Part shown: piece by piece, positions 62,801 through 64,000 of the stretch | Layout of the letters: every line of letters starts with the position of its first letter | Numbering within the stretch: position 1 is the stretch's first letter | Notes under the pieces: generated by a model | What the model was told of the DNA's origin: nothing | The model's input: the letters and a program-made list of their open reading frames with translations, nothing else | Databases searched by the model: none | Source: Actinomycetota bacterium | Lineage (GTDB): Bacteria; Actinomycetota; Acidimicrobiia; IMCC26256; PALSA-555 | NCBI GenBank assembly: GCA_016870355.1 | Contig: VGBR01000008.1 | Span: 56,427-120,426, forward strand | Reading direction: 5' to 3' | DNA: 64,000 bases | Translations under genes and position numbers: made by a program

Positions 62801-64000
62801 TCGATGGAGAGTTTGATCCTGGCTCAGGACGAACGCTGGCGGCGCGCCTCATACATGCAAGTCGAACGTGAAGCCCGGAGCTTGCTCCGGGTGGAAAGTG
62901 GCGAACGGGTGAGGAACACGTGAGGAACCTGCCCCGAAGACTGGGATAACACCGGGAAACCGGTGCTAATACCGGATGCCCTCACCGGATCTCATGTTCC
63001 GGTGAGGAAATGGATTCCGCTTCGGGATGGCCTCGCGGCCTATCAGCTTGTTGGTGGGGTAACGGCCCACCAAGGCTTCGACGGGTAGCTGGTCTGAGAG
63101 GATGTCCAGCCACACTGGGACTGAGACACGGCCCAGACTCCTACGGGAGGCAGCAGTAGGGAATCTTGCGCAATGAGCGAAAGCTTGACGCAGCGACGCC
63201 GCGTGCGGGATGAAGGCCCTCGGGTCGTAAACCGCTTTCAGCAGGGACGAAATTGACGGTACCTGCAGAAGAAGGCCCGGCCAACTACGTGCCAGCAGCC
63301 GCGGTAATACGTAGGGGCCAAGCGTTGTCCGGATTTATTGGGCGTAAAGAGCTCGTAGGCGGTTCGGCAAGTCGACGGTGAAATCTCCACGCTCAACGTG
63401 GAGGGGCCCGTCGATACTGCTGTGACTCGAGTCCGGTAGGGGAGTGTGGAATTCCCGGTGTAGCGGTGAAATGCGCAGAGATCGGGAGGAACACCCGTAG
63501 CGAAGGCGGCACTCTGGGCCGGTACTGACGCTGAGGAGCGAAAGCGTGGGGAGCAAACAGGATGGGGAAACTTGTCCTCTTCAGCCGTGAGGCTGTTGCG
63601 TAAACCAGCTGTATCGGTGAACATCCGTGCACAGCACGGACAACGCCGAGGGAAGTCGGTGGTCTGACGTCGGGTCCTCGTACACATCGACCCGGCGGCG
63701 CTCAGGCCGCTTGACCCCGTAGAGACTGCACGCTGGCCCTGGGCATGCGAGTGCTCAGGTGAAGACACAGTCCGACCTCACGGGTAACCGTGAGAGCACT
63801 CCCAGAAATGGGGTGCCGCCGCTTTGCGGTAAATGAAGCGGTCAGCAGCCCGAGAATTGGGTGAAAGTAACAGACGTGTAGATACCCTGGTAGTCCACGC
63901 CGTAAACGTTGGGCACTAGGTGTGGGACTCTATCGACGGGTTCCGTGCCGTAGCTAACGCATTAAGTGCCCCGCCTGGGGAGTACGGCCGCAAGGCTAAA
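62801..64000 (+). rRNA. rrs: 16S ribosomal RNA, 5' part (partial), interrupted by a group I intron
   Basis: The gene begins near 62801; AGAGTTTGATCCTGGCTCAG (27F site) starts at 62808. Conserved blocks follow in order: ACTCCTACGGGAGGCAGCAG, GTGCCAGCAGCCGCGGTAA, GTAGCGGTGAAATGCGCAGA and, after the insertion, TAGATACCCTGGTAGTCCAC. The region after 63239 (CAGCAGGGACGAAATTGACGG) has the short helix 17 typical of Acidimicrobiia. Exonic bases up to 63563 and from 63879 read as a normal, functional sequence. Only the insertion 63564-63878 departs from it. The gene is cut by the window end at about E. coli position 885. The remainder of the operon is not visible. Confidence 0.98.
63564..63878 (+). 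ncRNA. Group I self-splicing intron in 16S rRNA at position 788
   Basis: The 315-base insert separates GGAT from TAGATACC, E. coli 788/789. P1: exon AGGAU (63559-63563) pairs with the guide GUCCU (63574-63578), U.G at the splice site, capped by GGG-GAAA-CUU. P2: 63582-63586/63591-63595, loop GUGA. P3: CCAGC 63605-63609/GCUGG 63732-63736. P4: 63614-63619/63644-63649. P5: 63624-63630/63634-63640. P6a: 63659-63667/63702-63710. P7: GACUG 63724-63728/CAGUC 63768-63772. P8: 63738-63744/63753-63759. P9: 63777-63783/63788-63794, loop GUAA. R reads GUAGAGACUGCACG; S reads AAGACACAGUCC. The last base is G (omega-G, 63878). CAACGCCGAG, GUAGAGACU and GGUGAAG match the Azoarcus tRNA-Ile intron, suggesting an IC-type. 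No endonuclease gene lies inside. Confidence 0.95.

Follow-up and report, generated by a model that had tools for sequence, protein, structure and literature searches.

A likely group I intron at E. coli position 788 of a probably actinobacterial 16S rRNA gene, and its same-site relatives with LAGLIDADG_2 endonuclease frames

Experimentally characterised introns in 16S rRNA genes were formerly known only from the giant sulfur bacteria, and many have now been found in CPR bacteria, according to PMC11270868, which also gives insertions of at least 100 bases in 1.1% of the non-CPR 16S genes from RefSeq. The introns of the giant sulfur bacteria are group I introns (Salman et al. 2012, as cited in PMC11270868, PMC4853749, and PMC4914600), and in this they resemble the element described here, although their hosts are unrelated to ours; the likeness is drawn by intron class and gene. 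The 16S group I introns of CPR bacteria, as presented in PMC11270868, include several with LAGLIDADG_2 frames and other, shorter ones without a frame; their host phylum differs from that of our element, and their numbered sites may or may not include 788. In fungal nuclear rRNA, S788 is a named group I intron site (by the title of a reference in PMC1299323), which is the same E. coli position as that of our insert but in a eukaryote nuclear gene, the two being likened here by position, and in fungal mitochondria rns-788 is a group II site (PMC13190283). Reports of such 16S introns from hosts other than giant sulfur bacteria and candidate-phylum bacteria are few. The literature that we searched, which did not extend to the site lists in Salman et al. 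2012 and in the CPR study, contained no report of a 16S group I intron in the Actinomycetota. The kind of element is therefore already known, and the host group appears to be new to the searched literature.

The DNA analysed is a stretch of 64,000 nucleotides (the window), at the 3' end of which lies a 16S rRNA gene on the forward strand, broken by an insert of 315 nucleotides at positions 63564-63878. Mapping of the flanks to rrsB of E. coli K-12 placed the break exactly between E. coli positions 788 and 789, the site that an earlier note on this DNA had named from the letters. The 5' exon (62801-63563), identified by its match to RF00177 and by the E. coli mapping, extends to position 788 and ends in GGAU, and the 3' exon (63879-64000), placed by its sequence and the same mapping, restarts at 789 with UAGAUACCC and is ended by the end of the contig. 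Written across both junctions the sequence is ...AACAGGAT (63563) / G (63564)...GTG (63878) / TAGATACCC..., and the last base of the insert is the G at 63878 that would serve as the omega G of a group I intron; G is likewise the last intron base in two same-site relatives, L034 and L103. Both the U.G pair at the 5' splice site and the G at the 3' end to which the earlier note had pointed are thus found in the sequence. Contig C8 stops at window base 64000, which leaves roughly the first 900 positions of this 16S copy in view. Taken together, the exons share 97.6% and 97.4% identity with the 16S genes of two same-genus genomes that have no intron. The 790 loop of 16S rRNA, among the most conserved of the molecule, contacts the P site and IF3, and because the insert breaks this loop the host would need efficient excision of the intron to make its ribosomes.

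Relatives at the same site were sought in the genome contigs of 84,980 species by scanning for the 24-base 5' exon string, matched exactly, with any base but T after it. The scan returned six loci, namely L034 (JAKAVM010000104.1, 'MAG: Actinomycetes bacterium isolate YP3.bin99'), from the same class as the window, with an insert of 665 nucleotides at the same 788/789 junction, and five single-base changes at 789 that have no insert. The title of the L034 record also lends indirect support to the placing of the window's host in the phylum. The five substitutions in the 790 loop (L029, L030, L031, L032, and L033; C in four and G in one) are either true variants or sequence errors. Among 395 genomes of the window's class, the exact site was interrupted in one, the window's own, and the uninterrupted 31-base site was found in 78, with the remainder showing neither exact pattern; the window genome is counted as both interrupted and uninterrupted because of a second contig, C12. 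Two further loci, L103 and L104, escape the scan because it is blind to other spellings of the exon and to introns that start with T. Both belong to a single family, which the phylum groups in a class other than the window's, L103 with an intron of 874 nucleotides at 16S position 788 and L104 with the same 5' junction and an intron ended by the end of its contig. The identical junction in L034 and L103, together with the same 5' junction in L104, largely removes the worry, raised in the earlier note, that the insert might be an artefact of assembly. Searches of phages and plasmids by blastn with the window intron gave no match.

The Rfam group I model RF00028, the covariance check that the earlier note had proposed, matches the window at 63554-63794 over the full model with an E-value of 5.2e-7, yet the score of 36.9 bits falls short of the 50 bits set as the curated cutoff, and the outcome depends on the search filters, the window intron being missed with stricter settings and found with laxer ones. 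The predicted fold of the insert is 4.15 s.d. more stable than dinucleotide shuffles and was reached by none of 100 of these. The earlier note had drawn all core helices from P1 to P9 by hand; of these, P1-P5 and P7-P9 were drawn, with P9.1, and tested on the same-site introns, and P6 stands as a predicted fold only. The ten hand-drawn helix segments (P1-P5, P7-P9, and the two halves of P9.1) comprise 54 pairs, for which standard pairs were found in 183 of 183 cells over the window intron, L034, L103, and in part L104, which contributes P1, P2, P4, and P5 only. Because the helix strings were chosen with the sequences in view, this full pairing is partly by construction, and the two-sided changes, seen in 22 of the 54 pairs, are the stronger part of the hand-drawn evidence.

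All helices lie on the forward strand. In P1 (63559-63578) the exon bases AGGAU (63559-63563) pair with the IGS bases GUCCU (63574-63578) below a GAAA loop, with U788.G at the 5' splice site; this helix is invariant and therefore yields no covariation signal. The P2 hairpin (63582-63595), closed by a GUGA loop, has two-sided changes in four of its five pairs over four introns. P3, which spans 63605-63736 and joins 63605-63609 to 63732-63736, has five pairs that are invariant in three introns, and P4 (63614-63619 with 63644-63649) has six, one of them with a one-sided change and none with a two-sided one. P5 (63624-63630 with 63634-63640) shows two-sided changes in four of five tested pairs. 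P6 and its long extension occupy 63650-63718 in the predicted fold, and it is at this place that L034, L103, and L104 have their endonuclease frame. The guanosine-binding helix P7 (63724-63728 with 63768-63772, spanning 63724-63772) has two-sided changes in one of five pairs and encloses P8 (63739-63746 with 63751-63758), where they occur in six of eight. They are found as well in three of the seven pairs of P9 (63777-63783 with 63788-63794, GUAA loop) and in four of eight in P9.1 (63796-63804 with 63809-63816), the GAAA loop of which is present in all three introns compared. L2 and L9 of the window intron are both GNRA loops, which does not of itself place the intron in the Azoarcus-like (IC3) subgroup. 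For P10, in which the 3' exon pairs with the guide region, three of six positions pair in the window, five in L034, four in L103, and two in L104.

Over the window intron the sole listed frame of at least 100 amino acids is antisense, and the intron is not counted as encoding a homing endonuclease. L034 holds two LAGLIDADG_2 pieces (PF03161) in different frames, with E-values of 0.038 and 4.3e-5 at profile positions 2-34 and 119-165, and thus a broken gene. The second of these pieces has 23 homologues, and all ten of the homologous proteins that were fetched end in RTP at the C-terminus; in L034 the RTP codons and the stop form the intron core word CGAACCCCGUAG. One homologue, P0006, used as a query against 396 genomes from the phylum, had matches in 36, and the best seven of these 36 comprised two at 16S position 788 (L103 and L104), four in 23S genes (L105, L106, L107, and L109), and one, L108, without rRNA. 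The endonuclease frame of L103 is unbroken at 239 amino acids from stop to stop (PF03161, E=2.4e-34), and that of L104 is open for 148 amino acids, which is as far as the sequence goes.

As a test that leans less on strings drawn by hand, a covariance model of P7-P9 (R2) was built from the window intron and L034; within the window's class it matched 28 of 394 genomes. One of the 30 placed loci lies in a 16S gene (L072, which is the L034 intron) and 29 lie in 23S genes (L073-L101), clustered around E. coli positions 1923, 1932, 1952, and 2604, and one further match is unplaced. The automatic site assignment was loose for several of the 23S rows (for example 1938, 1945, and a 16S label for L087), and the sites given here are taken from the E. 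coli mapping instead. Group I introns are frequent in the 23S genes of this class and share the P7-P8-P9 core of the window intron, but they occupy another gene and other sites. In a set of 53 distinct P7-P9 cores, pairing holds in 96.3% of cells, compared with at most 45.1% when the partners are slid, and covariation is 0.607 against at most 0.109; in 500 shuffles four of five measures were never reached, and 14 of the shuffles attained the count of 17 pairs changed on both sides. This test favours the structure because the alignment was fitted to R2.

By core identity the window intron is closest to L103 (73.0%), followed by L034 (64.4%); no other core, those from the class's 23S genes included, exceeds 59.8% identity to it. 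L034 in turn is 71.7% identical to L103, 65.9% to some 23S cores, and 64.4% to the window. Two core trees, both poorly resolved, did not recover the 788-site introns as an exclusive group, and such a clade is unsupported because two long-branch cores from site 1952 fall among the 788-site cores in both. In the order to which the L103 genome belongs, four of eight genomes have a core match, and the four mapped loci other than that of L103 are all in 23S genes. The window intron belongs with the phylum's other introns at site 788, in which P6 holds a LAGLIDADG_2 frame: L103 has it unbroken, L104 has it open up to the contig end, and in L034 it is broken.

The draft genome from which the window comes (2.82 Mb in 31 contigs, 96% complete with 1.5% contamination) appears to combine two organisms. 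It contains two divergent 16S genes, one on C8 and the other, complete and intronless, on C12, and a tyrS lies upstream of each. The C12 copy has 94% identity both to the window exons and to the same-genus 16S genes, against the 97.6% and 97.4% of the window exons. A single tyrS was found in each of seven other genomes of the family among the 11 others searched, whereas the window's genome has two, of which the C12 tyrS is partial and 50% identical to that of the window. The window's 5' exon and its upstream tyrS are nearest to the same-genus genomes. Tetranucleotide profiles of 20-kb pieces did not set C8 apart from C12, nor from eight further contigs. With composition undiscriminating, it is the 94% 16S identity and the doubled tyrS that mark the C12 operon as probably derived from another organism. 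The 23S gene on C12 has three group I matches of its own (L013, L027, and L028, at 72.7, 35.0, and 23.0 bits).

We consider, with a probability of roughly 0.86, that the insert is a group I intron at 788/789 that likely splices itself out to leave a normal 16S rRNA and that descends from a homing intron with the loss of its endonuclease gene. The group I identity proposed in the earlier note, with normal exons, is supported by the RF00028 match, the exact mapping, and compensatory changes both in three to four same-site introns and in the 53 P7-P9 cores. The U.G pair and terminal G, the closeness of the exons to those of intronless congeners, and the endonuclease frame at the corresponding place in L103, with its remnant in L034, also speak for our reading. 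Self-splicing, homing, and endonuclease loss in the window copy are what we infer from these comparisons. A guanosine bound in P7 would attack after U788, held in place by the U.G pair of P1, and the freed 5' exon would then attack after the terminal G and join U789, so that the host would make normal 16S rRNA once the intron had excised itself. The window copy would most likely have come from a 788-site homing intron with a LAGLIDADG_2 frame in P6, the gene having since been lost. Weighing against this reading are the RF00028 score under the cutoff, the P10 pairing at three of six positions, the choice of helices by hand, the 14 of 500 shuffles, the lack of an exclusive 788 group, and the slightly greater nearness of L034 to some 23S cores.

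Several of these same points would be expected if the intron had decayed and could no longer splice itself, leaving a silent gene copy while the cell relies on another 16S, for instance the C12 one. The weak P10, the low covariance score, the absence of the endonuclease gene, and the fact that the draft genome also has a 16S without an intron all lean that way. We nevertheless regard decay as unlikely, given that every tested core helix is intact, with two-sided changes, and that the C12 operon looks foreign by its 16S identity and by the doubling of tyrS. An intervening sequence that is excised without ligation, to give a fragmented yet working 16S rRNA, has precedents in bacterial 23S genes (PMC11270868), but a group I core with covariation, an endonuclease family in the relatives, a U.G pair, and a terminal G are none of them expected of such an element, and we judge this explanation very improbable.

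The intron-bearing end of C8 might also be an assembly chimera. The contig ends 122 bases past the intron, and those 122 bases are identical to the C12 16S, which fits the breaks that assembly graphs make. On the other hand, both the 5' exon and the tyrS ahead of it are nearest to same-genus genomes, and L034 and L103 have their junctions at exactly this base, as L104 does on the 5' side; we hold a chimera to be very unlikely. The self-splicing group I intron of homing descent remains our preferred reading.

On a broader scale, we lean toward the view that the Actinomycetota harbour a 788-specific family of mobile group I introns, which would home into the 790 loop by means of their own LAGLIDADG_2 endonuclease, would have crossed between classes, and would cycle through copies that bear the endonuclease (L103 and L104), have it broken (L034), or lack it (the window). 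By splitting the 806R site they would hide their hosts from 16S surveys. With unbroken, broken, and missing endonuclease frames all seen at this one site, the homing cycle can be put to the test in bacterial 16S. The primers 806R and 785R both have their binding sites divided by the insertion. Where the 3' end of 806R would pair, two bases are mismatched in the window, L034, and L103, and the same two match in the intronless controls, the 16S genes of C12 and G001; from these 3'-end mismatches it follows that common amplicon surveys would likely pass over such hosts.

The 16S gene of L103 (G902:C151, minus strand) contains two further likely group I introns besides the one at the 788 site. One has an RF00028 match of 38.7 bits at 90-326, near E. 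coli position 1506 as read from its flank, and the other a match of 23.1 bits at 747-1060, where the flanks break at E. coli 1081/1083.
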